A stretch of DNA of 64,000 nt from Treponema ruminis. Its GTDB lineage: Bacteria > Spirochaetota > Spirochaetia > Treponematales > Treponemataceae. The translations under genes were made by a program, and so were the position numbers. Positions within the stretch are counted from its first letter, which is position 1. Every line of letters starts with the position of its first letter. Positions 22,049 through 53,655 of the stretch are shown one piece after another. The stretch covers positions 2,831,583 to 2,895,582 of the forward strand of contig CP031518.1 of the NCBI GenBank assembly GCA_017161305.1, given 5' to 3'. The notes below the pieces were generated by a model. That model saw only the letters and a program-made list of their open reading frames with translations. It was not told the origin of the DNA and ran no database searches.

Positions 22049-22456
22049 TTACTTGGTTTCTGATGATTCCCCGGTCTTTTCCGTGAATTTGGCCGCTTGG
22101 TCGATAATGATCTGCAGCGCCTTGACCAATCCTTGAAGCCGAATTGCCTTTTCTTTCAGGTCCAGCCGATAGAAGACCTGGGTTCCCGCCTTTCTTGTGG
22201 AGACGATGCCGGCATCCTTCAAGACTTTCAGGTGGTGGCTGATGGCGGGACGGGAAAGGCCACTGTCCGATGCGAGGTCGGTGACATTCATACCCACCTC
22301 GCCCGCGTTGGAGAGCTGGATGATGATTTCCTGTCTTGCCTGATCAATCAGTGCGAACAGAATCGGGCTTGCGAGCCGGAATTGGGAGAAGGCATAGGAG
22401 ACCTCCTGCCCAATCGATGTCTTCTGTTCATCATTCTTTTTCCTCAATATTCCCAT
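22049..22456 (-). CDS. ArsR-family winged-helix regulator of the RND cassette
   Basis: 135 residues. The winged helix has SGLSRPAISHHLKVLKDAGIV (recognition helix RPAISHH) and TRKAGTQVFYRLD as the wing. No CxC metal site is seen; the only likely sensor features are a hydrophobic C-terminal helix and an N-terminal extension, so it may bind an organic ligand or respond to redox or envelope stress. GGAA precedes the ATG. It is divergent from the RND pump gene, and its own promoter overlaps an array of repeats, which supports autorepression together with control of the pump operon. Confidence 0.88.
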   Translation of the reverse strand: MGILRKKNDEQKTSIGQEVSYAFSQFRLASPILFALIDQARQEIIIQLSNAGEVGMNVTDLASDSGLSRPAISHHLKVLKDAGIVSTRKAGTQVFYRLDLKEKAIRLQGLVKALQIIIDQAAKFTEKTGESSETK

Positions 22457-22611: not shown

Positions 22612-25401
22612 ATGAAGAAAATGCTCAAAGCCTCCAAGGTCGTGATTCTCGCGATTCTTGCGTTGACAGTCTTTTTCATTATCCAGCTGAAGAACTTACG
22701 GATGGAGAATGATATCAGAGAGTACATGCCGCACGAGTCTGGCTCGTATCAGCGTTTGCTGGAGACCGAAGATGTGTTCGGAAGTACCGTGGTGACAGGC
22801 ATATCGCTTGAGACCAGCGATCCGACCATTTTCACTGCGGACAATATCAAGAAGATTGACTCCATCACCAAACGCATGGAGAATGTCGAGAATGTCAGTG
22901 ATGTCCAATCTCTTACCAATATCGACTACCTGAAGGACGATAACGGCACTCTGGTCGCAGGACCGCTGTTGGATGAGGATTTCACCGGCACTGACGCCGA
23001 GGTCGAGAATGTCCGCGACAAGGTCGCAGACTGGTCCGAGTTGTATGACCGGGTGATCATCAGCGACAATGACCGCAGCACCCAGATCCAGGTGACCCTG
23101 AAGACTGGGGCCACCAAGGCGGAAAAGCGGAAGATGCTGAAAGACCTGCGCGCCATCCTCAACGAGGAGACCGATGGAACCCATTTCGAGTATCGCATGT
23201 ACGGGGACACGATCATCGACGAGCAGGCCGAGGTGATGATGATCATGGACCTGAAGAACCTCATTCCTCTGGTTGTCCTGGTCGTCCTGCTGTCGCTGCT
23301 TTTCTCGTTCCACACGTTTGACGGTACGATTCTTCCGTTGCTCACCGTGCTGATGAGCACCGTGTGGACCGTCGGCATCATGGCCATGCTGGACATGCCG
23401 TTCACGATTGTCAGCTCGATCATCCCCGTGGCGCTGATTGCTGTCGGTTCCGCGTATGGCATTCATGTGCTGACCCATTACTACGTGGCTCTTGACGACC
23501 GCGACAAGAGCATCCCGCTTACCCGTGACAACTACCTTGACTTGATTGCCGGCAGCCTGAAGGAGGTGATGCCCGCCGTCATGATGGCAGGCGTGACCAC
23601 GATTGCCGGTTTCATCAGCATGATGACCAGCCCGATCGAGCCGTTGCACAGCTTCGCGCTGTTCACCGCCCTCGGGGTTGCCTTCGCGCTTTTGCTGTCG
23701 ATCACCTTCATTCCTTGCTATCTGGCTGTCAAGCCGCTTTCCAAAGTGGGTGACCGCTCGAGAATCTTCAACCGGCTCACCAAGAAGCTGGAGAACAAGC
23801 AGGTGGCGAGCGGGCATAAGCTGAACAACGGTGGCTTCCTGTATGGCCAGTATCAGTTCTTTGCCGGCAATTCCACCAGGATGACGGTTTTCGTCGGCCT
23901 GATGGTCATCATCAGCGTCATTGGCTTGAAGCTTCTGGTGGTCGACACCTCGTTCGTCAACTATTTTCCTGCCAAGGGAAAGGTCCGTCAGGATATCGCG
24001 TTTGCCGATGACAACTTTGCCGGCACCAACAGCGTCTACCTGACAGTCCGCGCCCCGGAAGGGCAGAAGGCCTACAACGTCGATATGCTGCAGCCTCTTG
24101 ACAACATGCAGACCTATCTCGAGGGCAAGTATCCGCAGATCGGCAAGACGGTCAGCTTCTCCACCTTCGTGAAGAAGATGAACCAGGTCATGCACGCCCC
24201 TGTGGTCAATCCTGTCGCCGACGAGTCGGACGATTCCGCGGCCTATGATGATGGCGGCGCGCTCCCCAGTTTCGGAGACGACAGCGCCGTTCCGAGCTTT
24301 GGCGATGATTCGTCGATTCCGAGTTTCGGAGATGACGCGTCGGTCCCGAGTTTCGGCGACGAGGGAGCCTCTGCCAGTACGGAGGAGAGCGCCTATGTCG
24401 ACCCCAACATCGCCTACGCCAAGGAATTGGGCACCACCAGCACCACCGAGCAGATGCTGGACCTGCTGCACGAGGCCTACATCAAGGCCGGCGGGCGCCA
24501 TGCGACGGTCGAGGCAATGATTACCGAGCTGGAGAAATCGGTGAACTACAAGGGCATGAGCTACTACGAGGTCCCGAACGACATGACGAAATACCCGGCC
24601 ACGACCAGGGAGGACCTTTCCTTCGTCGTCGCCCAGTACCTGACCATGATCGGCAGCGACCTGGACCAGTTCATCAACGATCCGAACGAGCCGACCTCGA
24701 CCCGCATGCAGATCCAGTTGAAGACCCACAGCACCACGGTCACCAAGGCGATCATCAAGGATGCCGAACAGTTCGCCAAGTCGCACTTCCCGCAGGGGTA
24801 CACGATTGACGCCGAGGGGCCTGGTGAGATCGAGAGCGCTATGACCGACATGGTCATCTCCAGCCAGGTGCAGAGCCTGATCTTCAGCCTCGTCTGTGTC
24901 GTCGTGATTCTGACCGTGGCTTTCAAGAGCCTGTGGGCTGGCCTGCTGGGCGCTGTCCCGCTCGCCTTCACGATCCTGCTCAACTACATGCTGATGGGTT
25001 TCCTGGGCATCAACCTTGACCTGGTCACCAGCATCATCGCCAGCGTTGCGGTCGGTGTCGGAATCGACTACACGATCCACTTCATGCAGACCTTCAAGGA
25101 GGAGTCCCAGTACGAGGAGGAGAAGTCGCATGGCGAGGATGTCAACTACGAGGTCGCGACCCGCGAGACGTTCAAGAAGAGCGGAAGCGGCATCGTGACC
25201 AATGCCATGGCGGTCGGTCTCGGGTTCGTGGTGCTCTGCCTGTCCCAGTTCGTGGTACTGCAGAACATCGGCATCCTGATCGCGATCGTCATGTTCACCT
25301 CGAGCTTCCTGGCGATGACCATCATCCCTGGTCTGCTCAACGCGCATCATCCGAAGTTCATCACCAGGATGGACAAGAAAAAAGTGTCGAAGAAAGACTG
25401 A
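22612..25401 (+). CDS. RND/MMPL-family transporter with PSFGDD repeats
   Basis: 929 residues. One helix (about 7-25), a periplasmic domain, a block of five helices (about 212-380), a seventh helix (about 423-443), a second large periplasmic domain (to about 755) and a final helix block. VGSAYGIHVLTHYY and VGVGIDYTIHFMQTF are the paired motifs of hydrophobe/amphiphile MMPL pumps of the HpnN/YdfJ type. Residues 551-585 hold four 9-residue repeats with core PSFGDD in the second periplasmic domain. It is followed by LolA-like and barrel genes. Likely proton-driven extraction of lipid or another hydrophobic molecule from the inner membrane. Confidence 0.92.
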   Translation: MKKMLKASKVVILAILALTVFFIIQLKNLRMENDIREYMPHESGSYQRLLETEDVFGSTVVTGISLETSDPTIFTADNIKKIDSITKRMENVENVSDVQSLTNIDYLKDDNGTLVAGPLLDEDFTGTDAEVENVRDKVADWSELYDRVIISDNDRSTQIQVTLKTGATKAEKRKMLKDLRAILNEETDGTHFEYRMYGDTIIDEQAEVMMIMDLKNLIPLVVLVVLLSLLFSFHTFDGTILPLLTVLMSTVWTVGIMAMLDMPFTIVSSIIPVALIAVGSAYGIHVLTHYYVALDDRDKSIPLTRDNYLDLIAGSLKEVMPAVMMAGVTTIAGFISMMTSPIEPLHSFALFTALGVAFALLLSITFIPCYLAVKPLSKVGDRSRIFNRLTKKLENKQVASGHKLNNGGFLYGQYQFFAGNSTRMTVFVGLMVIISVIGLKLLVVDTSFVNYFPAKGKVRQDIAFADDNFAGTNSVYLTVRAPEGQKAYNVDMLQPLDNMQTYLEGKYPQIGKTVSFSTFVKKMNQVMHAPVVNPVADESDDSAAYDDGGALPSFGDDSAVPSFGDDSSIPSFGDDASVPSFGDEGASASTEESAYVDPNIAYAKELGTTSTTEQMLDLLHEAYIKAGGRHATVEAMITELEKSVNYKGMSYYEVPNDMTKYPATTREDLSFVVAQYLTMIGSDLDQFINDPNEPTSTRMQIQLKTHSTTVTKAIIKDAEQFAKSHFPQGYTIDAEGPGEIESAMTDMVISSQVQSLIFSLVCVVVILTVAFKSLWAGLLGAVPLAFTILLNYMLMGFLGINLDLVTSIIASVAVGVGIDYTIHFMQTFKEESQYEEEKSHGEDVNYEVATRETFKKSGSGIVTNAMAVGLGFVVLCLSQFVVLQNIGILIAIVMFTSSFLAMTIIPGLLNAHHPKFITRMDKKKVSKKD
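24262..24366 (+). repeat. Four 27-bp in-frame repeats encoding x-PSFGDD-xx
   Basis: Codons 551-585 of the RND gene encode LPSFGDDSA, VPSFGDDSS, IPSFGDDAS and VPSFGDEGA. The DNA copies differ at third positions, so this is an old, selected repeat rather than a fresh duplication. Confidence 0.85.
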
Positions 25402-25428
25402 TTCGAGCAAGGTAAGGAGAGAAATACT

Positions 25429-26205
25429 ATGAAAGCAATGAGAAATGCGTTTGCCGTTGGTTTGCTGGCCACCTTGGTGGCAAGTCCCCTAGCCGCAATC
25501 ACCGGTCGTGAGGTCATGGAGAAGGCGGACGCCGTCCCCGAGCCGAAGACCAGCATGAGCCAGGTCCAGATGGACCTTGTCGACAAGAATGGTACGGTGC
25601 AGAGCCGTATGATGCTGGAGTACGGCAGGGAACCGGAAGACCTGAAGGATATTGTCATCATCTTCCAGAGTCCCGCCAGCGTGAAGGACACCCGTTTCCT
25701 GCAGAAGGATAAAGTGGGAGGCGGTTCGGACAAATGGATCTACATGCCGAGCCTGCGCAGCACCCGCCGTATCGCGGCCAGCGAGGGCGACAAGTCCTTC
25801 ATGGGCAGCGATGCCACCTACGACGACCTTTCCGGCCGCGAGCTGGACGATTATGAGTACGAGTTGCTTTCCGAGAGCGAGCCGAAGGGCAAGTGGACTA
25901 CCTACAAGGTCGAATGCACTCCGAAGCCGACCACGGACAGCCAGTATTCCAAGCTGGTTACCTGGATCGACCATGACACCTTCGTTCCCGTCTATACGGA
26001 GATGTACGACAAGGACGGCAAGCTCTTGAAGGAGCTTGAGGTGATGGACCTGCAGGTGGTTGGCGGCTATCAGACTCCGATGCTGAACGAGCTGCGCAAC
26101 GTGCAGACCGGCCACAGCACCAAGCTGACCATCAAGCAGATCAAGGTTGACCTTGCCCTGCCTGACCGCATCTTCACGACCAACTTCCTGAATACCGGCA
26201 AATAA
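25429..26205 (+). CDS. LolA-like outer-membrane lipoprotein-sorting family protein
   Basis: 258 residues with a signal peptide ending near SPLAA. The mature part has the family pattern: an N-terminal GREVMEKAD helix, long antiparallel strands (QVQMDLVDKNGTVQSRMMLEY), WIYMPSLRSTRRIAASEGDKSFMGSD and GYQTPMLNELRNVQTGHSTKL. This matches the outer-membrane lipoprotein-sorting (PF17131) branch of the LolA/LppX fold, whose half-barrel holds acyl chains. Between an inner-membrane RND pump and an outer-membrane barrel it probably ferries hydrophobic cargo across the periplasm. AAGGAG precedes the ATG; the gap from the RND gene is 27 bases. Confidence 0.88.
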   Translation: MKAMRNAFAVGLLATLVASPLAAITGREVMEKADAVPEPKTSMSQVQMDLVDKNGTVQSRMMLEYGREPEDLKDIVIIFQSPASVKDTRFLQKDKVGGGSDKWIYMPSLRSTRRIAASEGDKSFMGSDATYDDLSGRELDDYEYELLSESEPKGKWTTYKVECTPKPTTDSQYSKLVTWIDHDTFVPVYTEMYDKDGKLLKELEVMDLQVVGGYQTPMLNELRNVQTGHSTKLTIKQIKVDLALPDRIFTTNFLNTGK

Positions 26206-26223
26206 CAGCACAAGGAGGATGAG

Positions 26224-27744
26224 ATGAGCATTATGTGGAAAAAGGTACTGCTGGCCGCAGCCTTGGCGGCATTTGCCACCACTGCCGTGATGGCTGACGA
26301 CCTTCCGTCTTTCGATACCCCGAGCGACAACTCGATTCCCGGTTTTGGCGATGAGAGTGGCTCGCTTCCCGGTTTCGAGTCTGATTCGGGTTCCGCTTCC
26401 AGCTCGAGCTTCGGTGCCGCTTCCAGCGCCTTGGCCATCAGCGGAGAGGGTGGAGCCTCGTCCCGCTGGTTCCTTGCCGGAGCGAGCGACATCGAGGACC
26501 GCGCGGTCCAGATGGATCCCTATTTTCGGCTGAACTTCTCCTACAGCGGTTCCATCGGCGAGGTGGAGGCGAAGCTGAAGGTCAATGAGCGGATCCTGAA
26601 GGACAACCCTGAGGATGTCATCGACGAGTTGACGCTTCGCGCCTATCTGGGCGATTTCGTCCTCGAGGCTGGCAAGATGAAGCTGGTCTGGGGCAAGGGC
26701 GACAAGGTCCATGTCCTGGACAACTTCAACAGCGACGACTATTCCGACTTCATCTTCCCGGACTACATCGACCGCCGCATCGCCGTGCCGATGGTGCACG
26801 TCGCCTACAACATGGACAACGGCATGAGGCTTGAGGGTGCCTACACCCCGTACATGACCGGCACCCGCTACGCCTCCAGTGGTCCGTGGGTCCCGGAACG
26901 CACGCTGCTTGACGCCTACCAGGCGGCGAACAAGACTGCAAAGGAGAATCCTCTCTATGGATCTTCGTACACAGAGCCTACCTTGGGTAGTTTCAGTGCA
27001 ACGAAACTGTACGGAATCTACAAGGACAACCTGCCGGACACCCGCACCCTGAAGTACGGCCAGTTCGGTCTGCGGGCCACCGGTACCGTCGGTTCGTTCG
27101 ACTGGGGCGCCTCCTACTTCTACGGAAGGATGAAGGATTCCTCGATCCACTCTGAAGAGCTGGTGAGGATGTTGTTGAATGCGGGATCTCCCGCTAATGT
27201 GGCTGTTGGTCAGCTGTACGACTACGACCGCATGCAGGTCTTCGGACTGGAGGGTGCGACCGTCGTGGGAGGATTCAACTTCCGTGCCGAGCTCGGCTAC
27301 TTCCTGACCGATGATGTCGATGGCGACGATCCGTATGTGCACAACAACAGCCTGCAGTGGGTCTTCGGCTTCGACCGCGACCTGCCGTGGAACAACCTGA
27401 ACGTCAACATCCAGACCCAGGGAAAGTATATCCTGCATGGGGATGACGTGAAGGACAACGGGGTCGGCGATGTGGACTACAACGGGGAGAAGGCCTGGGT
27501 GCAGAACCGCCTCGTGCTGGATATCACCGACAGCTGGATGCATGAGAAGCTGAAGCCAGAGCTGAAGCTGGTCTGGAACATCGAGCTGGAAGACGTGGTC
27601 GTCATGCCGCAGGTTTCCTATCAGCTGATGGAGGGCCTGGACGTCTCGTTGGCCGGTCTCTACATCTACTCGGGCGACAACGGACAGTTCTACGATTTCA
27701 AGGACAATTCCTTTGTCCAAGTCGGAGCTGTCTACAAGTTCTGA
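26224..27744 (+). CDS. Outer-membrane beta-barrel partner of RND cassette 1
   Basis: 506 residues. A signal peptide ends near AVMA; the mature N-terminus (about 25-60) is acidic and serine-rich with PSFDTPSD, PGFGDESG and PGFESDSG, related to the repeats in the RND partner. The rest alternates short amphipathic strands, with GDFVLEAGKMKLVWGKGDKV typical of DUF1302-like porins, and ends VGAVYKF, a Bam-type C-terminal phenylalanine. AAGGAGG precedes the start, 18 bases after the LolA-like gene. It should be the outer-membrane exit or docking site of the cassette. Confidence 0.82.
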   Translation: MSIMWKKVLLAAALAAFATTAVMADDLPSFDTPSDNSIPGFGDESGSLPGFESDSGSASSSSFGAASSALAISGEGGASSRWFLAGASDIEDRAVQMDPYFRLNFSYSGSIGEVEAKLKVNERILKDNPEDVIDELTLRAYLGDFVLEAGKMKLVWGKGDKVHVLDNFNSDDYSDFIFPDYIDRRIAVPMVHVAYNMDNGMRLEGAYTPYMTGTRYASSGPWVPERTLLDAYQAANKTAKENPLYGSSYTEPTLGSFSATKLYGIYKDNLPDTRTLKYGQFGLRATGTVGSFDWGASYFYGRMKDSSIHSEELVRMLLNAGSPANVAVGQLYDYDRMQVFGLEGATVVGGFNFRAELGYFLTDDVDGDDPYVHNNSLQWVFGFDRDLPWNNLNVNIQTQGKYILHGDDVKDNGVGDVDYNGEKAWVQNRLVLDITDSWMHEKLKPELKLVWNIELEDVVVMPQVSYQLMEGLDVSLAGLYIYSGDNGQFYDFKDNSFVQVGAVYKF

Positions 27745-27839: not shown

Positions 27840-29168
27840 ATGCGTATCCAGCTTTCAGACCATTTTACCTATGGGCGCCTTTTCCGTTTCACCTTTCCCT
27901 CCATCATCATGATGGTGTTCACCTCGATCTATTCGGTCGTTGACGGCTTTTTCATTTCCAACTACGTCGGCAAGGTGCCGTTTGCCGCCTTGAACCTGGT
28001 CATGCCCCTCTTCATCATCCTTGGTTCCGTGGGGTTCATGCTGGGATCCGGGGGCAACGCGATTGTGGCGCGGACCTTGGGGGAGGGGGATAGGTCAAAG
28101 GCGAACCGCTACTTCTCGTTCCTGGTGCTGGCCTGTATGGGTTTGGGCTTGCTGGTCTTTCTTGTGGGATTCGCCTCGCTTTCCCCTATCGCCCGGTTCC
28201 TTGGCGCGAGTGGCGAGATCTTGGGCAATTCGGTGCTCTATGGCCGGATCGTGTTGTGCGGCATGCCGTTCTTCATGTTGCAGAACCTGTTCCAGAGTTT
28301 CTGCATCACCGCTGAACGGCCGAAACTCGGACTGGCGTTCACGGTTGCCAGCGGCCTCGCCAACATGATTCTTGACGCATTGTTCGTCGCTGTCTTCAAA
28401 TGGGGGCTTGCAGGCGCAGCCTGGGCTACCGTAATCAGCGAGGTCGTCGGAGGTCTTGGTCCTGTCTTCTATTTCCTCAGACCGAACGCGAGCCTTTTGC
28501 GGCTTGGACGCACCCGCTGGTATGGGAGAGTGCTGTTGCAATCCTGTTTCAACGGGTCTTCGGAGTTGATGAGCAACATAGCCGCCAGTATCGTCTCGGT
28601 GCTCTACAACTGGCAGTTGCTTTCCTACGCGGGGCCTGACGGAGTGGCGGCATATGGAGTGCTGATGTACATCAGTTTCTTCTTCAGCGCCATGTTCATC
28701 GGTTACGCTGTCGGCGTCTCTCCGGTAGTCGGTTTCCACTACGGGGCTGGCAACAAGAAGGAACTGAAGAACCTCCTGCATAGAAGCTTTTTGCTGATTG
28801 GCGTGTCGGGTATTTGCATGTGGGCGTTGGCATCGCTGAGCGCTCCTTCGCTCTGCCGGGTTTTCGTGGGATATGACGAGAACCTGTATCGGATGACGGT
28901 GGGGGCGCTGAGAATCCACGCTTTCTGCTTTTTGCTTGGTGGTTTCAACATCTTCACCTCCTCGTTCTTCACTGCGTTGAACAACGGAGGGGTGAGCGCG
29001 CTAGTCTCGTTCCTCCGGACATTGGTCTTTGAGACGGGAAGCGTGGAGCTGTTGCCGCTGGCGTTGGGGCTCAATGGCATATGGGCGGCAACCGTCATCG
29101 CGGAGAGCGCCGCGCTGACAGTGAGCTTGCTGTGTCTGTTTTGGCAACGGCCCCGTTATGGATATTGA
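27840..29168 (+). CDS. MATE-family efflux transporter
   Basis: 442 residues, 12 predicted helices. TFPSIIMMVFTSIYSVVDGFFI, the GSGGNAIVARTLGEGD loop and NMILDALFVAVFKWGLAGAAWATV in both halves are typical of the MepA-like MATE branch. It should export cationic or amphipathic drugs or metabolites using Na+ or H+. It has a consensus promoter but no ribosome-binding site. Its last 74 bases overlap the 3' end of the oppositely oriented, interrupted MATE gene. Confidence 0.92.
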   Translation: MRIQLSDHFTYGRLFRFTFPSIIMMVFTSIYSVVDGFFISNYVGKVPFAALNLVMPLFIILGSVGFMLGSGGNAIVARTLGEGDRSKANRYFSFLVLACMGLGLLVFLVGFASLSPIARFLGASGEILGNSVLYGRIVLCGMPFFMLQNLFQSFCITAERPKLGLAFTVASGLANMILDALFVAVFKWGLAGAAWATVISEVVGGLGPVFYFLRPNASLLRLGRTRWYGRVLLQSCFNGSSELMSNIAASIVSVLYNWQLLSYAGPDGVAAYGVLMYISFFFSAMFIGYAVGVSPVVGFHYGAGNKKELKNLLHRSFLLIGVSGICMWALASLSAPSLCRVFVGYDENLYRMTVGALRIHAFCFLLGGFNIFTSSFFTALNNGGVSALVSFLRTLVFETGSVELLPLALGLNGIWAATVIAESAALTVSLLCLFWQRPRYGY

Positions 29169-30492
29169 GTTCCTTGTGTAGACGGACCAGCAGGATGATG
29201 GCGGTCGCTTGCCCGACCAAGTCGCCGAAGAAGTAGCAGTACCAGACCCCGGAAAGCCCGATGCAATGGGCGAGGAGGTAGGCCGCGGGAAGCACTCCTA
29301 GCACCTGCCTGCTCAGGGTGATCAGCGCGGCGCGCATCCCTTTGCCGAAGCCTTGCAGGTAGGCCGCGGTCTGATAGAGCAGGGGAGCGCCGATAAAGCA
29401 CAGGCTGACCCGGGGAAAGGCGATTTCCATCTGCCTTGCCAGCTCCGCGCTTGGGCGGAACATGCCATACAGCCATTCGGGGTGTATCTGGAAAAGCGGG
29501 AATCCGAATCCCAGCATGTACAGATAGGTAAAGCAGAGAGACCAGCGATAGGCGCTGCGAGTCCGGTCGATCCTGTTCGCTCCATAGTTGAAGCTGGTGA
29601 TCGGGACCAGACTGTTCGACATGCCGTGCATCGGCAGGAAGATGAAGGTTTCGACTTTGATATACAGCCCGTAGGCGGTCACCGCGAGCGGAGTGAACCC
29701 GATCAGGATCTTGTTGACCAATGTCAGGCTGATCGAGCCGCTTGCCTGCAGCAGCATGGTCGGTACCCCGATGGCGAGGATGGTTCCTGCGGCGCTTTTC
29801 CTCCATATCCGTTGTCCGTGTTGCAGGCAGGAGAGCTTGTCGCTGCGGACAAGCAGGACTGTGGCGATAGCGCAACTGGCGGCCTGCCCGATGATCGAGG
29901 CCCAGGCGGCACCGGCGACCCCCATGTCCAGGCCGAACATCAGGATCGGATCCAGAATCAGATTGCAAACGACGCCCACCGCCAGGCAGAGCAGGGTATG
30001 GAGGCTTTCCCCAGTACCCTGCAGCATGAAGGTGATGACTCCTCCTGTGACCTGGAAGCCACAGAGGACGATGCTGATGCCGATGTAGGTCAGGGAGAAA
30101 TCCGCGAGTGCCGGATCGTCAGTGAAGAAGCGGACATAGGCCCCCACCAACGGTCCGCCAAAGACGAGAAAGAGCAGGGAGATTCCCAAGCTCATGCCCA
30201 AGGCGGTGTTGCCCGCCTCGTTCGCATCACGTTGCTCGCCTCTGCCCAGACGGCGGCTGATTGCCCCGCTTGCGCCAAGCCCCAGGCCGCCAGTCAGGGC
30301 GACGACCAGCTGCTGGATCGGGTAGGCGAGGCTCAGGGCCGCGATGGGACCGTTCCCGAGCCGGGAGACATAGAGCTAGTCGATGATGTTGTACAACGCC
30401 TCAAGGGCCATGCTGAGCATGATGGGGAGTCCCAGTTTCAGGACCAGGATGGGAATCCTCTCCGTGCCCATGCGGTTGGAAGGAGCCTGCAT
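29095..30492 (-). pseudogene. MATE-family transporter interrupted by an in-frame TAG
   Basis: From the ATG at 30492 the frame reads a normal MATE N-terminus up to ALEALYNIID, then TAG at 30376-30378, then LYVSRLGNGPIAALSLAYP and an intact remainder to 29095. The adjacent intact MATE has YNIVDSVFVSM at the same place, so the stop replaces a serine-like residue in helix 1 and a single TCG-to-TAG change would explain it. No other lesion is seen. The remaining 3' part begins with an alternative TTG at 30201 and would lack helices 1-2. Recent nonsense mutation, a sequencing error, or rarely suppression; it overlaps the convergent MATE gene by 74 bases. Confidence 0.8.
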
Positions 30493-30516
30493 ACCTTTGG
30501 TAATAACGGATTTCCT

Positions 30517-31869
30517 TTATTTGAACAACGGTTTTACTTTACGCCGGTATTCCCAGGCAAAAAGCGTGATGACGAGCGTGAGGCTGACGGTCTCGGCGAT
30601 GATGAAGGCGAACCAGACGGCGTGCAGGCCCTGGATTCTGGCAAGGATCCAGGCGGCAGGAAGCAGGACGACCAGCTGGCGGGTCAGGCTGACAACCATC
30701 GAGAGGATACCGTCCCCAACCGCCTGGAAGAGCCCCATCAGGCAGATGGAGATACCTGCGGGGACAAAGCAGAGCGAGAGTATCGGCAGCGCGTGTTCGC
30801 CGATGGTCCGCATCTGTTCCCCTGCATGGAACAAGGAGAGCAGGAAGTCTGGAAAAATCGTGAAGCCCAAGGTCCCAAGGCACATGATGGCGGTGGCGAT
30901 GGAGACTGCGGTACGGATCGCCTGGTTCATGCGCCGGGGGTTTTTGGCACCGAAATTGTAGCCGACAATGGGAATCAGGCCGCTGTTCAGGCCGAAAACC
31001 GGCATGAAAACGAAGCTTTGCAATTTGAAATAGACGCCGAATACAGAAACCGGGGCCATGCCGAAGGCGACCAGGATCTTGTTCAGACCGCTGGTCATCA
31101 CCGTTCCGATCGACTGCATGACAATGGAAGGAAGCCCCACCGCGTAGATTTCCCTGATGGTCTGGACGTGCAGCTTCCTGTTCTCCGGTTTCAGCGTGAC
31201 ATATGGGTTCCGCTTGACGAACAGGTAGCTGAGCAGGGCGGAGACGTGCTGCCCAAGTACCGTGGCGATTGCCGCGCCTGCTATGCCCATGCGGGGGAAT
31301 CCTGCCAGCCCGAAGATCAAGACCGGGTCCATGACGATATTGGTCGCCGCGCCGGCGAGCTGGACGATCATCGGATGCACCGTATCCCCGGTGGCCTGCA
31401 TGATCCGTTCCAGCGTGATGTCGATGAAGATGGCTCCGCTTGCCACCAGGCACCAGCGGGTGTAGACAGTTCCCATCTCCACCAGTTCCGCGTCATCGGA
31501 GAAGAGCCTGAAGAAGGGACGGGAGAGGAACAGGCCGATCATGATGAAGGCGGCCCATCCGAACAAAGCCAGGGTGATGCCTTGGCTTGCCGCTTGCTCC
31601 GCACCGTCCCGGTTCTTGGCCCCGAGGTTGCGGGCGATCAGGCTGCCGACACCGATGGCGGTTCCCACGGCGACCGAACCCATCAGGTTCTGGAGCGGAA
31701 ACGCAAGGCTGACAGCCGCGAGCGCCGCCTCGCTGTACATGGAGACGAAAACCGAGTCGACGATGTTGTAGAGCGCGAGCACCAGCATGCTGACCATGAT
31801 CGGCAATGACATGGATATGACAAGGCGGGGAACGGGAAGGACTCCCATCCGATTTTCTGCATGTTCCAT
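30517..31869 (-). CDS. MATE-family efflux transporter
   Basis: 450 residues, 12 helices. SLPIMVSMLVLALYNIVDSVFV, GVGSLIARNLGAKNRDGAEQA and GAATNIVMDPVLIFGLAGFP identify the family. It lies upstream of the interrupted MATE gene on the same strand with only 24 bases between them, so the two probably arose by duplication and share a transcript. TATGAT (31883-31878) with TTTACC 17 bases upstream ends eight bases before the ATG and no Shine-Dalgarno is visible, so this transcript too may be leaderless. Confidence 0.92.
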   Translation of the reverse strand: MEHAENRMGVLPVPRLVISMSLPIMVSMLVLALYNIVDSVFVSMYSEAALAAVSLAFPLQNLMGSVAVGTAIGVGSLIARNLGAKNRDGAEQAASQGITLALFGWAAFIMIGLFLSRPFFRLFSDDAELVEMGTVYTRWCLVASGAIFIDITLERIMQATGDTVHPMIVQLAGAATNIVMDPVLIFGLAGFPRMGIAGAAIATVLGQHVSALLSYLFVKRNPYVTLKPENRKLHVQTIREIYAVGLPSIVMQSIGTVMTSGLNKILVAFGMAPVSVFGVYFKLQSFVFMPVFGLNSGLIPIVGYNFGAKNPRRMNQAIRTAVSIATAIMCLGTLGFTIFPDFLLSLFHAGEQMRTIGEHALPILSLCFVPAGISICLMGLFQAVGDGILSMVVSLTRQLVVLLPAAWILARIQGLHAVWFAFIIAETVSLTLVITLFAWEYRRKVKPLFK

Positions 31870-49344: not shown

Positions 49345-51702
49345 ATGCGGATTACAAGCATCAATGGCGTCTTCCGGAGCATAGGGACGTGGCAAGTCGC
49401 CCATCGCTGGCCTTTGCTGGTTGTTACCGTTCTTATCTCGCTTTTCTGTCTTGCGGGTATCCCCCGTGCCAAATTTTCCAACCAGTCCGACGATTGGTTT
49501 GACGACACAGAGAAGGTGAAGGTCGATTCCGACCATTTCAAGGATATTTTTGGAAATGACGACTCGGTGATGGTGCTGGTGCAGGCCTCTGATGTGTTCG
49601 CCCCCGAGGTGCTCCAGGCCATCGACCAGTTGGGGGACGAGTTGCTTGCCTCCGTTCCTTACGCTGACAAGGTGACCAGCCTTACCACCGTGTCGGTGCC
49701 TACCGGAACCGAAGAAGGGTTTGAGGTTTCCAGTCCGTTCGCCGACGGAATACCTGACGACCCCAAGTTGCTGGCGGAGAAGAAGGCGTTCCTGCTGGGC
49801 AAGTCCTCGCTGAAAGACCATCTGGTCAGCAGTGACGCTACACAGACATGGGTTGTGCTTTCGCTGTTCCCTTACGACACCGACTCCGAGGAGGCGATGA
49901 TCAGAGTGGGCGACGCGGCACGCGGTGTGCTTGCGTCGGGCCGGTATACGAGCAGTCTGTATACGATGAAGGCGACCGGGATGTCCTATACCGAGGCGGA
50001 AGAGCATATCGTGGTCAACCACGAGACACGGGTCAGGGTGATGGGGGGCTTTGGCGTCATGCTGCTCTGCCTCGTCATTCTTGTCCACTCTCCCCGGGGA
50101 GTGGTGATTCCCATCCTTGCCACGTTCCTCGGTATCGGGTCAGTCTTCGGTCTTTCCGGCTGGCTCGGGGTGGAAGGAAACTCCACTTTGGTCACCTTGC
50201 CGATTTTGCTTGGGATGGCCCTTTCGGTAGGCTACGCGATCCACCTGATCGATGCCTTCCGCACCCATTTCCGACAAAGCTGCAGTCGGCGCCAGTCGGC
50301 GATAGACGCCGTCAGCGAGTGTGGGTGGCCGATTCTCTTTACCGTGCTGACAACGGTGGTCTCGTTGCTTTCTTTTCTGCTGGCCGACATGAAGCCGATG
50401 CGGTGGCTCGGCAGTATATCGGCGGCTGTGGTTCTTGCCGTCTATCTGTTCGTGATGGTGTTGGTTCCGGTCTTCATGAGTTTCGGCCGGGACAGGGTAC
50501 CAAGCCCGGAAGCGGTAGCCACCCAAGGAGCTACCCGGGCCGATCTGCTCTTCGGCCGTTTCGGACGGGTGGTCATTGCCAGAAGTCCGCTTGTCATCGC
50601 CATCTCCATAGCGGTCATTGCCTGGTCGATTCCGGGACTGGCGCGCACGCATGTCAACATGGACTATACGCAGATGATGGGGAAACGGATTCCGTATGTC
50701 GCGAGAATGCTTGATATCCTCAATTCCAAACTGGGGAGCCAGTACAGCTACGATGTGCTGGTCGAATGCCCTCAGGAAGGAGCTTTCAAACAGGCTGGGA
50801 CGATGGAGGCATTGGACCGGTTTGAGCGCTATCTGGGCGCTTTGAGCCAGACAAAGGTCACTGACGGCCAGCCCCGTACCACAAGTGTGGTACGCCTGGT
50901 CAAAGAGATGCACAGGACTTTGAACGGGGATGATGAGGCCTGTTACGCGATTCCTGAGGATGACGACCTGCTGTCGCAGGAACTTTTCTTGTACGAGATA
51001 TCTGATCCCGAAACCTTGTTCGATGAGCTGGACGAGGACTATCGGTACGCGCATATCCATGTGGAGCTCAATGGGTACGATGCCAACCAGATTCTCAAGG
51101 ACATATCCAGTGCCAAGGACTATGGACAAAGCCTTTTCCCGGGAGCCAAGGTTTCGGTTATCGGGCAGGTGGTCGAGTACGCGGCGATGAACGGCAAGGT
51201 GGTCAACGGCGAGCTCAAGTCCTTTGGCGGGTCCTTGGTGGTTGTCGCCATCCTGCTGATGGTGGTCTTCCAGTCGGTCCTGACCGGTCTGGTCGCCATG
51301 ATTCCCAACATCGTTCCGGTCCTGCTGGTAGGAGGGGCGATGGGGTGGACGAACACGCCGCTGGACATGATGACCATGACCATCATGCCGATGATCCTCG
51401 GTATCGCCGTCGATGACACGATCCACCTGACGACCCGTATCCGCTTCGAGATGGAGGATGGAACGACGACAGGCGCCATGGCGGTGGAGCGGTCGTTCCG
51501 GGAAATCGGCAAGACGATGTGCATGACCACGCTGATTCTCTGCTCGATGTTCCTCGTCTATTGCTTCAGTCCGATGATGGCTCTTCTTCGTATCGGCGTC
51601 CTTTCCATCATCGGTCTTGGCTCCGCTCTCGCGGCCGACTACACGCTGACGCCGGTATTGATCAATCTGCTTTCCAAACGCAAAGGAAAGAGGGAGGAGT
51701 GA
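49345..51702 (+). CDS. RND/MMPL-family transporter of cassette 2
   Basis: 785 residues, start with GGAGGT four bases upstream. A first helix (about 19-40), a periplasmic domain, five helices (MLLCLVILVHSPRGVVIPIL onward), a second periplasmic domain and a final helix block with ILGIAVDDTIHLTTRI. LGMALSVGYAIHLIDAF and this motif are the paired MMPL signatures. Same family and same gene context as the pump of cassette 1, but about 145 residues shorter and without the PSFGDD repeats. Predicted to move lipid or hydrophobic cargo from the inner membrane to the LolA-like partner. Confidence 0.92.
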   Translation: MRITSINGVFRSIGTWQVAHRWPLLVVTVLISLFCLAGIPRAKFSNQSDDWFDDTEKVKVDSDHFKDIFGNDDSVMVLVQASDVFAPEVLQAIDQLGDELLASVPYADKVTSLTTVSVPTGTEEGFEVSSPFADGIPDDPKLLAEKKAFLLGKSSLKDHLVSSDATQTWVVLSLFPYDTDSEEAMIRVGDAARGVLASGRYTSSLYTMKATGMSYTEAEEHIVVNHETRVRVMGGFGVMLLCLVILVHSPRGVVIPILATFLGIGSVFGLSGWLGVEGNSTLVTLPILLGMALSVGYAIHLIDAFRTHFRQSCSRRQSAIDAVSECGWPILFTVLTTVVSLLSFLLADMKPMRWLGSISAAVVLAVYLFVMVLVPVFMSFGRDRVPSPEAVATQGATRADLLFGRFGRVVIARSPLVIAISIAVIAWSIPGLARTHVNMDYTQMMGKRIPYVARMLDILNSKLGSQYSYDVLVECPQEGAFKQAGTMEALDRFERYLGALSQTKVTDGQPRTTSVVRLVKEMHRTLNGDDEACYAIPEDDDLLSQELFLYEISDPETLFDELDEDYRYAHIHVELNGYDANQILKDISSAKDYGQSLFPGAKVSVIGQVVEYAAMNGKVVNGELKSFGGSLVVVAILLMVVFQSVLTGLVAMIPNIVPVLLVGGAMGWTNTPLDMMTMTIMPMILGIAVDDTIHLTTRIRFEMEDGTTTGAMAVERSFREIGKTMCMTTLILCSMFLVYCFSPMMALLRIGVLSIIGLGSALAADYTLTPVLINLLSKRKGKREE

Positions 51703-51706
51703 AGAA

Positions 51707-52486
51707 ATGCGCAACATCTTGCTGATGGTTGTCCTGCTTGCCGTCAGGGGCGTTTTCGCCCATGCGGAGCCTTTGACAGGATACGAAATCGCCAAGCGTT
51801 CCGACGAGATTCCTGAAGGGACGACCTGTCAGGAGACAGCGACGATGACACTGGTCAACAAAAAGGGGAAGAGCCGGGTACGGGTCATCTCGATGTCCTC
51901 CAAGGACTATGGAGACGTGAAGAAGTCCGTCTTGGTCTTCTCCCAACCAAAGGACGTGGCAGGAGTGGCTTACCTGATGTTCGAGTGGGACGACCAGGAC
52001 AGGGACAACGACTGCTGGCTCTACCTTCCTGCCATGAAAAAGGTCAGGCGAATCAGTGGCTCTGGCAGGGAGGAGGACTTCATGGGAACCGATTTCACCT
52101 ACGACGACATGGGCGACCGGGGTGTGGAGAAAGATATCTTTACCTTGCTTGGCGAGGAGGATGTCGATGGACAGCCCTGCTACAAGGTCCAGGCGGTGGC
52201 GAAGGACAGTGCCGAACGGAATCCCCGAAGGATCGAATGGTACCGTACCAGCGATTGCCTGTTGCTCAAGGTGGAGCTCTACGACCGACAGGACATGCTG
52301 GAACGGGTGATGGTCTCGGAGGATATCCAGACAATCGACGGGTACCTGACCATAGGGAAAATGACGATCCAGAACGCGCAGACCGGCCACAAGACCATTC
52401 TGGAAATGTCTGACGTAGCCTATGACCAGAGCCTGGACGATTCCTTGTTCACGGTGGCGACAATCGAGCGGGGAAACCTCTTGTGA
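51707..52486 (+). CDS. LolA-like outer-membrane lipoprotein-sorting family protein, cassette 2
   Basis: 259 residues with signal peptide ending near FAHA. GYEIAKRSDEIPEG, CWLYLPAMKKVRRISGSG and EEDFMGTDFTYDDMGDRG match the equivalent segments of the cassette 1 protein (WIYMPSLRSTRR, KSFMGSDATYDDL), so the two are paralogues. The closing IQNAQTGHKTILEM also corresponds (NVQTGHSTKL). Predicted periplasmic acyl-chain carrier. It starts four bases after the RND stop and overlaps the barrel gene by four bases. Confidence 0.88.
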   Translation: MRNILLMVVLLAVRGVFAHAEPLTGYEIAKRSDEIPEGTTCQETATMTLVNKKGKSRVRVISMSSKDYGDVKKSVLVFSQPKDVAGVAYLMFEWDDQDRDNDCWLYLPAMKKVRRISGSGREEDFMGTDFTYDDMGDRGVEKDIFTLLGEEDVDGQPCYKVQAVAKDSAERNPRRIEWYRTSDCLLLKVELYDRQDMLERVMVSEDIQTIDGYLTIGKMTIQNAQTGHKTILEMSDVAYDQSLDDSLFTVATIERGNLL

Positions 52487-53655
52487 GACGCGCCCTGCTG
52501 CTTCTTTGGGGGAACCTTTTCCTTGCTTTCCCGCTCTTTCCCCTCCAGATGGTTCCCAAAGGGAAGGTAGCGGTGGTGCAGGCGGCGGGAAAGGGGGGAA
52601 AGATCCGGTCCTCCCTCCTTTCGATGGAAGGCGAGCTTCGCGTCTCTTCAGGGGAGACCTTGTTCTATGGGGATGGGTCGCTGGAGGTGGACGCGCTGGC
52701 CAACCAGACGGACGGTCAGGTCAGGGAAGCCTGGTTCGACTACAGCGAGGGCTGGTTCTCCTTCCGTGTCGGACGGCAGATTGTCGCCTGGGGCGAGGCC
52801 GACGGGGTAAGGATCACCGATGTGCTTTCCTCCCGTGATCTCCATACCCTCTATCAGGACGACAAGCTCGCCATCGACGCGCTCAGGCTGACCGGTTCTT
52901 GGGCCAGCCATAGCTTCGATTTCTACTGGATTCCCATGTTCCGCGTCGCCCGGCTTCCCGGGGATGACAACCCCTTGGCGGAACTTGATGCCTACCGTAT
53001 CCTTTCCCTCCTTGACCGGCAGGAACCTGAACGGGAACTTGCCCATGGTTCCTACGCGGTGCGGTTTGCCAGTAGGACACCGATGATTGACTACGCTTTC
53101 TACGGATACTGGGGGTACAATGACCTGCCCATCGTGGATATCGGAAAAGGAATGGCCGTGTACGAGCGTATGGGCATGGTCGGCTTTGATGCCGATATGC
53201 CGGTCGGTTCCTTTGTGTTCCGTATGGAAGGTGCCTGGTATCCTTGGCAGGCGCTCCAGCGAAAGGACCTTGGAGGTAGCGAGCGGAGGAACCAGATCCA
53301 GGCTCTGGCAGGTATGGACTGGACGCAAGGTGGCTGGTCGTTGACCCTGCAGTATGCTTGTGATCTGGTTCTAGGGAGGACATCAGGGCTGAATCACGAG
53401 CGCTACGAGCACAAGGCGACTATCTCGCTTTCCCGGTCGCTTTGCGACGACCTGCTCGATCTCTCGCTAGAGGCGGCGGCCGGCCTGAACGACCTTGACA
53501 GCGTCTGGCATGCGAGCATGGCATATGACGTCACTGACGACCTTGCCATCGAAGGCGGTTGGTACCTGTTCCTGGAAGGACCAGAAAGGACGGGGACATA
53601 CGGCACGTATCGAGACTATTCCATGGCGTACGCGAAGGCGACATACCAGTTCTGA
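52483..53655 (+). CDS. Outer-membrane beta-barrel partner of RND cassette 2
   Basis: 390 residues starting at a GTG that overlaps the previous stop (GTGA). A hydrophobic N-terminus (LLLLWGNLFLAFPLF) serves as signal. FSFRVGRQIVAWGEADGV parallels the GKMKLVWGKGDKV strand of the cassette 1 barrel, and the protein ends AKATYQF. It is shorter than its paralogue and lacks the serine/acid-rich N-terminal segment, consistent with the missing repeats in its pump. Last gene of the cassette. Confidence 0.8.
   Translation: MRRALLLLWGNLFLAFPLFPLQMVPKGKVAVVQAAGKGGKIRSSLLSMEGELRVSSGETLFYGDGSLEVDALANQTDGQVREAWFDYSEGWFSFRVGRQIVAWGEADGVRITDVLSSRDLHTLYQDDKLAIDALRLTGSWASHSFDFYWIPMFRVARLPGDDNPLAELDAYRILSLLDRQEPERELAHGSYAVRFASRTPMIDYAFYGYWGYNDLPIVDIGKGMAVYERMGMVGFDADMPVGSFVFRMEGAWYPWQALQRKDLGGSERRNQIQALAGMDWTQGGWSLTLQYACDLVLGRTSGLNHERYEHKATISLSRSLCDDLLDLSLEAAAGLNDLDSVWHASMAYDVTDDLAIEGGWYLFLEGPERTGTYGTYRDYSMAYAKATYQF

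Follow-up and report, generated by a model that had tools for sequence, protein, structure and literature searches.

The transit of hydrophobic cargo from an RND pump to an outer-membrane barrel without a TolC-type tunnel is a largely open problem, especially in spirochaetes. In the BstABC sterol transporter of methanotrophs, an RND-type pump is combined with periplasmic lipid carriers that are not LolA-like. LolA of the E. coli type accepts lipoproteins at LolCDE and delivers them to LolB, and in that system we know of no repeat motif common to donor and acceptor; in the locus described here, the gene for a LolA-like protein adjoins those for an RND pump and a barrel. The TonB box and the TolB-binding peptides offer a parallel of another kind: each is a short, disordered stretch of an envelope protein, at or close to its N-terminus, that docks to a periplasmic partner, as the segments described below would likewise do. 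To our knowledge, these peptides have no matching duplicate in an inner-membrane partner, unlike the cassette studied here.

Among the closest described systems is AmeABCD of Castellaniella defragrans, where an HAE3 RND pump, a DUF1329 LolA-superfamily protein, and a DUF1302 protein are encoded together with a second periplasmic protein, AmeC; the sections of the source available to us mention no common linear motif (PMC6394551). A barrel, a LolA-superfamily protein, and a pump also occur in the Pseudomonas putida set PP_0765 (DUF1302), PP_0766 (DUF1329), PP_2018, and PP_2019, which differs in that its locus numbers correspond to two gene sites and that it is tied to Tween 20 use, again with no motif mentioned in the available sections (PMC10866462). 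The E. coli LolCDE-LolA-LolB system shares the principle of a LolA-fold shuttle between an inner-membrane machine and an outer-membrane acceptor, although, in the part of the source consulted, the two ends are an ABC transporter and the lipoprotein LolB rather than an RND pump and a barrel (PMC13078400). Our literature search, with most subscription journals outside its scope, returned no pointer to a motif common to pump and barrel.

Results

Composition of the locus

The window analyzed here is a stretch of 64,000 nucleotides from Treponema ruminis (contig CP031518.1, positions 2,831,583 to 2,895,582). Within it, a DUF1302 protein, a LolA-superfamily protein, and an HAE3-like pump that scores under the HAE3 cut-off are encoded together at 22612-27744 (cassette 1, Table 1). 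The pump has an MMPL domain in both halves (PF03176, 128.6 bits over two stretches) and does not reach the curated cut-off of TIGR00921 (239.8 versus 351.9 bits); it is thus HAE3-like without belonging to that model, and it falls far below the cut-off of the BstA model (31.7 versus 1400 bits). The LolA-like protein covers positions 4-183 of the 184 in the PF17131 profile (209.6 bits), and its closest solved structure is 9tp6 (6.7e-40). The match of the barrel to PF06980 is above the gathering score (36.7 versus 23.2 bits) and partial, spanning positions 166-380 of 541. As regards a counterpart of AmeC, the interval between the pump and barrel genes of this locus contains no gene other than the LolA-like one. 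A PHROGs search gave no match.

Table 1. Features of cassettes 1 and 2 in the window (window positions).
Feature	Positions	Strand	Basis
ArsR/SmtB-type regulator gene, divergent from cassette 1 (context only)	22049..22456	-	NCBIfam NF033788, 4.8e-19
Cassette 1 inner-membrane RND pump, MMPL/HAE3-like, 929 aa	22612..25401	+	Pfam MMPL, 3.3e-37; TIGR00921 HAE3, 4.7e-71, under curated cut-off
Insertion site B equivalent (approximate), pump ~residues 484-490, empty in cassette 1	24061..24081	+	By eye
Insertion site A, acidic linker in pump second periplasmic domain, ~residues 531-596	24202..24399	+	Orthologue alignment
Four 9-residue x-PSFGDD-xx repeats, pump residues 551-586	24262..24369	+	Reading; tandem repeat 24268-24356, 73% DNA matches
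Cassette 1 LolA-like periplasmic protein, 258 aa, without aromatic-acidic repeat	25429..26205	+	Pfam PF17131, 3.9e-62
Cassette 1 outer-membrane barrel, DUF1302-like, 506 aa	26224..27744	+	Pfam PF06980, 3.3e-09
Putative barrel signal peptide, residues 1-24	26224..26295	+	Read by eye from sequence
Mature N-terminal barrel tail, three degenerate copies	26296..26436	+	Reading; flavour-matched repeats here in orthologues
Cassette 2 pump, without repeat	49345..51702	+	Pfam MMPL, 1.1e-31; no tract by reading or by mechanical rule
Cassette 2 LolA-like protein	51707..52486	+	Pfam PF17131, 1.6e-57
Cassette 2 barrel, without N-terminal repeat	52483..53655	+	Pfam PF06980, 1e-07; sequence read

The repeat units of the cassette 1 pump read LPSFGDDSA, VPSFGDDSS, IPSFGDDAS, and VPSFGDEGA and are placed between the first and second membrane bundles of the MMPL/HAE3-like RND pump, a position that we take, by standard RND topology, to be the second periplasmic domain. 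All four repeats described in the initial annotation are present, the only correction being that they end at residue 586 rather than 585. The accompanying claim that the mature barrel opens with related segments was borne out on reading: PSFDTPSD, PGFGDESG, and PGFESDSG start at residues 28, 39, and 49 (26305-26391), right after the likely signal peptide. In the six-codon core of the four pump units, the pairwise sum of codon differences is 19 synonymous versus 3 nonsynonymous, and this synonymous excess argues that the repeats are not the result of chance or slippage. The pump and barrel of cassette 2, which had been said to lack repeats, do lack them on reading; the mechanical rule used below to call tracts flags just one 15-residue stretch across 49345-53655, located in the barrel core.

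The motif across orthologues

The general feature in orthologous cassettes is an aromatic-acidic tract (DFGDFG, DDWGDS, FGFGD, SFFEEEG, SFYEDD, or TSSFGEE, for example) that the pump carries in its second periplasmic domain, at one or other of two insertion points, and the barrel where its mature sequence begins. The initial proposal of a motif in both proteins therefore holds in general form, whereas the exact PSFGDD wording, which is limited to Treponema ruminis and close kin, is not the conserved part. P-x-F was rejected as a conserved core, with no association between partners (p=0.13-0.38). In the alignment, most orthologous pumps carry other aromatic-acidic repeats at site A. Six pumps considered as exceptions without the site-A linker (L064, L088, L092, L123, L136, and L142) were rejected as such, their DFDFG/DFGFG/GFDF repeats being at site B, which lies ~45 residues upstream in window numbering. 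Occurrence at either of two points in one domain is as expected of a linear motif. The tracts in both partners are acidic, of low complexity, and variable in copy number, and the segments that carry them in the pump loop and the barrel N-terminus are disordered-looking.

Co-occurrence in pump and barrel

By a single mechanical rule, 99 of 113 cassette-1-like pairs have a tract in pump and barrel alike, such pairs being defined as those whose pump and barrel both best-match cassette 1 of the window; the 124 pairs in the mechanical count are non-identical, not non-redundant. One of the 99 (L280) was a false positive, leaving 98 after reading. With the addition of L113, L149, L080, L082, L220, and L223, 104 of the 113 are paired on reading, and seven have the motif in neither partner (L101, L106, L217, L232, L246, L279, and L280). 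One-partner cases dropped from 11 of 113 by rule to two on reading, L240, whose barrel alone has the motif, and L072, whose barrel has it weakly; the remaining mismatches come from truncated or split ORFs, trimmed sequences, tails that contain Y, or pairs in which neither partner has the motif. Some barrels carry the motif with no pump on the retrieved stretch. In the Halanaerobiales (Bacillota), five strong cassettes (including L176) have the motif in both partners and six weak loci are without the pair. For the 11 cassette-2-like pairs the mechanical rule is noisy (five neither, three barrel only, two pump only, one both); none of the 11 has a paired motif on reading, and L255 and L284 have one pump tract each. 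The motif is thus nearly always in both partners or in neither, and it follows cassette type in two phyla. The initial annotation held that docking would be weakened if orthologues often had repeats in one partner only or if the motif were a widespread low-complexity linker; orthologues instead show co-presence in two phyla, and the pattern searches described next gave no sign of such a linker.

A genome-wide low-complexity linker was rejected by codon-pattern searches and by reading the matches. The pattern P-(S/T-like)-F-G-D-D has three matches in the genome, all in the cassette 1 pump, the fourth unit ending in E. A more permissive pattern, P-x-F-(G/D/E)-(D/E), has 41 matches versus 39 for its reverse; five of the 41 are the cassette 1 pump and barrel, and 30 of the other 36 were read, none of them in a comparable acidic-aromatic tract. 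Across 196 genomes, DFGDFG has 87 matches versus seven for the reversed pattern, and 75 of the 87 were assigned to pumps or barrels (seven off-cassette contigs read as pumps, the remainder by position beside a barrel). W-type matches lie inside the cassette in genomes G458 (4/4) and G035 (3/3), and three in G012 and G017 fall outside it. A third motif-bearing protein was also sought in 19 off-cassette DFGDFG regions, and no obvious partner emerged: seven hold pumps, six matches fall in ORFs just 12-100 residues long (L189, L190, L191, L193, L195, and L202), two are in longer ORFs with one common sequence that look antisense by eye (L197 and L201), and single matches occur in other proteins (L192, L196, L199, and L206).

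Flavour matching between partners

The wording, or flavour, of the tract (F-G-D, W, F-F, F-G-F, or S-F) changes in step in pump and barrel. For the similarity tests, 118 pairs became 105 once identical barrel ends were removed, and 45 barrels were without an adjacent pump. The 105 became 93 when five b2/p2 rows and seven others were dropped: L217, L232, L240, L101, and L246 (no insert), L080 (no tail), and L241 (trimmed tail without an aromatic). Kept among the 93 were L106, in which reading found no motif, and two pairs with over-trimmed tails, L245 and L176. Whatever the redundancy level, own partners were more similar than shuffled ones (n=93, z=14.1; n=64, z=11.9; n=45, z=9.6), including barrels less than 45% identical (n=24, z=6.5, 0/5000 shuffles) and the smallest set (n=13, z=3.9, 1/5000 shuffles). 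A partial Mantel test controlling for barrel core, pump, and GC gave r=0.605 (n=64, 0/2000). At less than 55% barrel identity (n=45), F-G-F is in both partners in 11 pairs, in the pump only in three, in the barrel only in two, and in neither in 29 (p=2.4e-6); W (p=0.0014) and F-F/Y/W (p=0.0017) are also associated. By the similarity measure, the own barrel ranks first for just 10 of 45 pumps, with a median rank of 5. A within-genome test, on genomes with two motif cassettes each, was weak, being positive in five of seven and slightly negative in G048 and G426. Genomes G000 and G376 each have two cassettes with different matched flavours.

The LolA-like protein as a candidate receptor

No aromatic-acidic tract of at least 20 residues was found in 54,358 residues of LolA-like proteins. 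Their net charge is similar in cassettes with the motif (mean -0.9, n=97) and without it (-1.5, n=17; p=0.45), so no extra basic surface for acidic peptides is seen, and the cassette 1 protein is itself acidic (-8). Divergence of the LolA-like protein was not significantly related to that of the motif (partial r 0.11, 211/2000, n=51). Columns R89, I104, G120, D132, and F253 are conserved in the 97 sequences from motif cassettes and not in the other 17, a pattern that may be plain subfamily divergence. The cassettes of L096 and L098 are among those with the motif. Among the P. putida homologues, AlphaFold complexes, as given in the sections available, join the DUF1302 barrel to the DUF1329 protein, and the DUF1329 protein to the pump and another periplasmic protein, PP_2018 (PMC10866462).

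Discussion

Our leading explanation, to which we give roughly even chances, is that pump and barrel dock the same periplasmic protein through a co-evolving motif, the likeliest candidate being the LolA-like shuttle of the cassette. Of the three cassette proteins, the motif occurs in the two that would deliver cargo to the LolA-like protein or receive it from there. Pump, LolA-like protein, and barrel would form a transport line along which a hydrophobic molecule would pass from inner to outer membrane, and both motif copies would be equivalent peptide ligands for one groove, most probably on the cassette's own LolA-like protein. The shuttle would load at the pump motif, depart, and unload at the barrel motif, with tandem copies raising the probability of capture. 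A change in the groove would drive the identical change in both peptides, since on the docking explanation one groove must fit both, which would account for their common flavour shifts. The initial annotation had suggested a common docking factor, perhaps the LolA-like protein, or self-association, and it is partly supported: docking to the LolA-like protein would fit the paired, flavour-matched motif, while LolA charge and co-divergence give no signal for it.

Self-association is a less likely competitor. Here pump linker and barrel tail would associate directly, by way of aromatic stickers or paired strands, and form a tether between pump and barrel across the periplasm, the shuttle working within or beside the tether. 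Binding of like to like predicts exactly the flavour matching seen, the repeats resemble FG-type sticker sequences, and many pump linkers hold several copies over 70-122 residues. Against this, in five cassettes (L214, L221, L229, L236, and L245) there are just one or two short copies, and at ~14-21 residues the barrel tail would have little reach across a periplasm of ~15-25 nm; direct contact is disfavoured when both tracts are acidic. We regard as improbable a common receptor encoded outside the cassette, such as a chaperone or a cell-wall or envelope-bridging protein. The silent LolA tests would suit it, and SurA is an example of a periplasmic factor known to bind aromatic-x-aromatic peptides, but one house-keeping receptor would leave the differently matched cassettes of G000 and G376 unexplained, and it sits poorly with a motif that tracks cassette type in two phyla. 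The last alternative, that the tracts bind nothing specifically and are independent acidic tails serving as entropic spacers or solubility aids, alike only through ancestry, genome composition, or slippage, would suit their composition and variable copy number and is nevertheless very improbable, being strongly disfavoured by the shuffled-partner and partial Mantel tests, the concentration of DFGDFG and W-type matches in the cassettes, and the synonymous excess within the repeats.

A co-evolving tag in both partners predicts docking by one surface of a common partner, and it may help to assign partners where several cassettes occupy one genome. Such letter-level co-evolution between disordered-looking segments on two different membranes is in itself unusual. 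More tentatively, and with somewhat less confidence than we place in docking itself, the tag may be a lineage-tuned envelope address code common to Spirochaetota and Halanaerobiales, in which the same aromatic-acidic tag on donor pump and acceptor barrel would be read by one soluble lipid shuttle or by a self-formed FG-like mesh, and flavour (F-G-D, W, F-F, or F-G-F) would keep the parallel cassettes of one cell apart.

Cassette 1 carries repeats in its pump and its barrel

The initial annotation had described repeats in the second periplasmic domain of the pump and degenerate copies at the mature start of the barrel, and reading of the sequences confirmed both. In the barrel, PSFDTPSD, PGFGDESG and PGFESDSG run from residue 28, directly behind a likely signal peptide as read by eye. 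The pump units share only 73% DNA identity, and their six-codon cores differ, summed over pairs, by 19 synonymous versus 3 nonsynonymous codons, so the protein sequence of the repeats is being kept. Three adjacent ORFs downstream of the cassette (27840-31869) resemble, by eye, MATE-type transporters.

Features of cassette 1, in window positions
Feature	Position	Description
Pump	22612-25401	MMPL/HAE3-like RND protein
Four 9-residue units in pump	24262-24369	LPSFGDDSA, VPSFGDDSS, IPSFGDDAS, VPSFGDEGA
LolA-like protein	25429-26205	
Barrel	26224-27744	DUF1302-like

The motif recurs in orthologous cassettes in other letters

Orthologous cassettes were gathered from the genomes of relatives and from a named scan that included Treponema species, a Sphaerochaeta MAG, Breznakiella homolactica and Natroniella acetigena, with the best 80 of 132 kept. 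In most of them the same two sites hold a tract that is acidic and contains F or W; its letters vary by lineage yet tend to match between pump and barrel. Examples, given as pump/barrel by locus (L), are DDWGDSGDDWGDS/QDDWGSD (L169), PFSFFEEEG..LFFFEEEG/QELSFFEEGAAG (L214), DFGFGFEQ/DFGFGFED (L227), SFGFDFAE/STFGFDQPE (L229), DFFTEDTSTEDDSFSDFF/DDFFDDFATDE (L233), SFYEDD in the form of seven copies/EDSFFFEDD (L234), and GFTSFFTD/GFTTFNDT (L236). Among the compared pairs, the PSFGDD wording itself occurs only in the species of the window and its near relatives (L067, L108, L109); the motif is a family feature that extends beyond this wording. The whole cassette is present in two tandem copies at L213:1801-12861 (genome G532), with near-identical barrel tails and differing pump linkers. 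LolA-barrel gene pairs with no pump on the fetched stretch (L162, L187, L135, L151, L154, L134) have shorter, Y/E-rich barrel tails (QDYEEEPFEP, QDFDDFESYDEIEEP).

Co-presence in orthologous cassettes, which the initial annotation had named as a check on its proposal, was scored on 124 non-identical pump-barrel pairs using 12-residue windows in which 11 or more positions come from DEGSTNAPFWYQ, two or more are F/W and one or more is D/E, core matches being removed. By this rule, both partners carry the tract in 99 of 113 cassette-1-like pairs, with seven pump only, four barrel only and three neither; a re-check exposed L280, one of the 99, as a false positive. On reading, 104 of the 113 are paired, two are discordant (L240, L072) and seven have neither (L101, L106, L217, L232, L246, L279, L280). 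For the 11 cassette-2-like pairs, the rule gave five neither, three barrel only, two pump only and one both (L104), and reading found the paired motif in none, L255 and L284 having one pump tract. Tracts of at least 20 residues occur at 84 per 10,000 residues in barrel tails, against 6.9 in barrel cores; the middle of the pumps has 26 and their remainder 0.4, and other ORFs, whether genuine genes or not, have 2.3. LolA-like proteins have none over 54,358 residues, although here the filter also strips the conserved LolA loop.

Six pumps that apparently lacked the linker (L064, L088, L092, L123, L136, L142) proved on full reading to bear DFDFG, DFGFG or GFDF repeats in the same periplasmic domain, at an insertion point ∼45 residues upstream (window numbering). 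The tract can therefore occupy either of two loops, as is expected of a linear motif and not of a folded element. A third locus in the window's genome (L064:1530-7701 and L247:1118-5051) contains a pair of pumps, a pair of LolA-like genes and a single barrel in divergent arrangement. Each pump carries DFDFG/DFGFG repeats, and the barrel opens with DDFDFGGDSGDDFGG; this flavour differs from that of cassette 1.

The feature reaches a second phylum. In 13 genomes of Halanaerobiales (Bacillota), the barrel profile was matched in nine, strongly in five. In each of the five strong cassettes (L275-L278, L176) the pump carries T-S-S-F-G-E-E-like repeats, and the barrel begins with copies of the form S-S-F, T-S-F, S-A-F or F-G-D; the paired motif is absent from all six weak loci (L279-L284).

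The motif is not spread across the genome

Codon-pattern searches spoke against the motif being a widespread low-complexity linker of the genome, a case that the initial annotation had named as weakening its proposal. P-(S/T-like)-F-G-D-D has three matches in the window's genome as a whole, all inside the cassette 1 pump. A looser pattern gave 41 matches genome-wide versus 39 for its reversed control, hence no enrichment, and none of the 30 read, out of 36 outside the cassette 1 pump and barrel, lies within a comparable tract. D-F-G-D-F-G has 87 matches in 38 of 196 genomes (seven for the reversed pattern). Matches fall inside pumps in seven of 19 off-cassette regions; the other 12 are single matches in six short ORFs, two longer ORFs, which look antisense, and four other proteins. 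The remaining matches were placed in pump or barrel by their position adjoining a barrel. W-type matches lie within the cassette in 4/4 (G458) and 3/3 (G035) cases, three lie outside it (G012 and G017), and G021, G222 and G178 gave no match.

Pump and barrel tracts match statistically

Across 93 pairs, aromatic-context similarity is 0.847 with the own partner versus 0.720 with others (z=14.1). The excess persists when pairs with similar barrel cores are thinned out, both at milder levels (n=64 with z=11.9; n=45 with z=9.6) and at stricter ones (n=24, z=6.5, 0/5000 shuffles; n=13, z=3.9, 1/5000), and in a partial Mantel test controlling for barrel-core distance, pump distance and GC (r=0.605, 0/2000, n=64). 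The match is a statistical one, with the own barrel ranked first for 10 of 45 pumps (median rank 5). At n=45 the partners agree in F-G-F (p=2.4e-6), W (p=0.0014), F-F/Y/W (p=0.0017) and S-F (p=0.0099), with P-x-F (p=0.13) and F-D/S-F (p=0.059) short of significance. When n falls to 24, agreement persists for F-G-F (p=0.00035) and for F-F/Y/W (p=0.014) but not for W (p=0.17) or S-F (p=0.084). Own pairing is better in five of seven genomes with two motif cassettes, clearly in G000 and G376 (+0.30 each), slightly in G501, G539 and G542, and not in G048 and G426.

Discussion

The transport cassette is of an already known kind, exemplified by AmeABCD from Castellaniella (PMC6394551) and its Pseudomonas putida counterpart. 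For the latter, AlphaFold complexes join the barrel with the LolA-superfamily protein, which is also modelled together with the pump and a further periplasmic protein (PMC10866462). Searches of open-access literature turned up no description of a matched pump-barrel motif.

The comparisons show that, with few exceptions, pump and barrel carry the tract together, in flavours that match statistically. The main rival explanation is a homotypic bridge, wherein the pump linker would bind the barrel tail directly; it predicts the same partner matching, but fits less well with barrel tails of only ∼14-21 residues. Given the known cassettes, the simplest reading would make the tract a peptide ligand on donor and acceptor for one groove of a shuttle that visits both, with the LolA-like protein as the receptor we infer. 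In sequence tests of LolA in that role, mean net charge was not significantly different in motif cassettes (-0.9, n=97) and in others (-1.5, n=17; p=0.45), nor did LolA divergence significantly follow motif divergence (partial r 0.11, 211/2000). Among solved structures, the nearest to the window's LolA-like protein is 9tp6 (E 6.7e-40), which bears the name outer membrane lipoprotein-sorting protein. Residues 123-133 of the window's protein (25795-25827) form a conserved family loop, SFMGSD(F/A)TYDD, somewhat like the pump and barrel motif, and this loop may serve as an intrinsic mimic or as a lid. If one groove of the shuttle were to bind the tract displayed by both the donor pump and the acceptor barrel, the motif would appear in those two of the three cassette proteins, be free to move between loops, be repeated, and change together in both copies.
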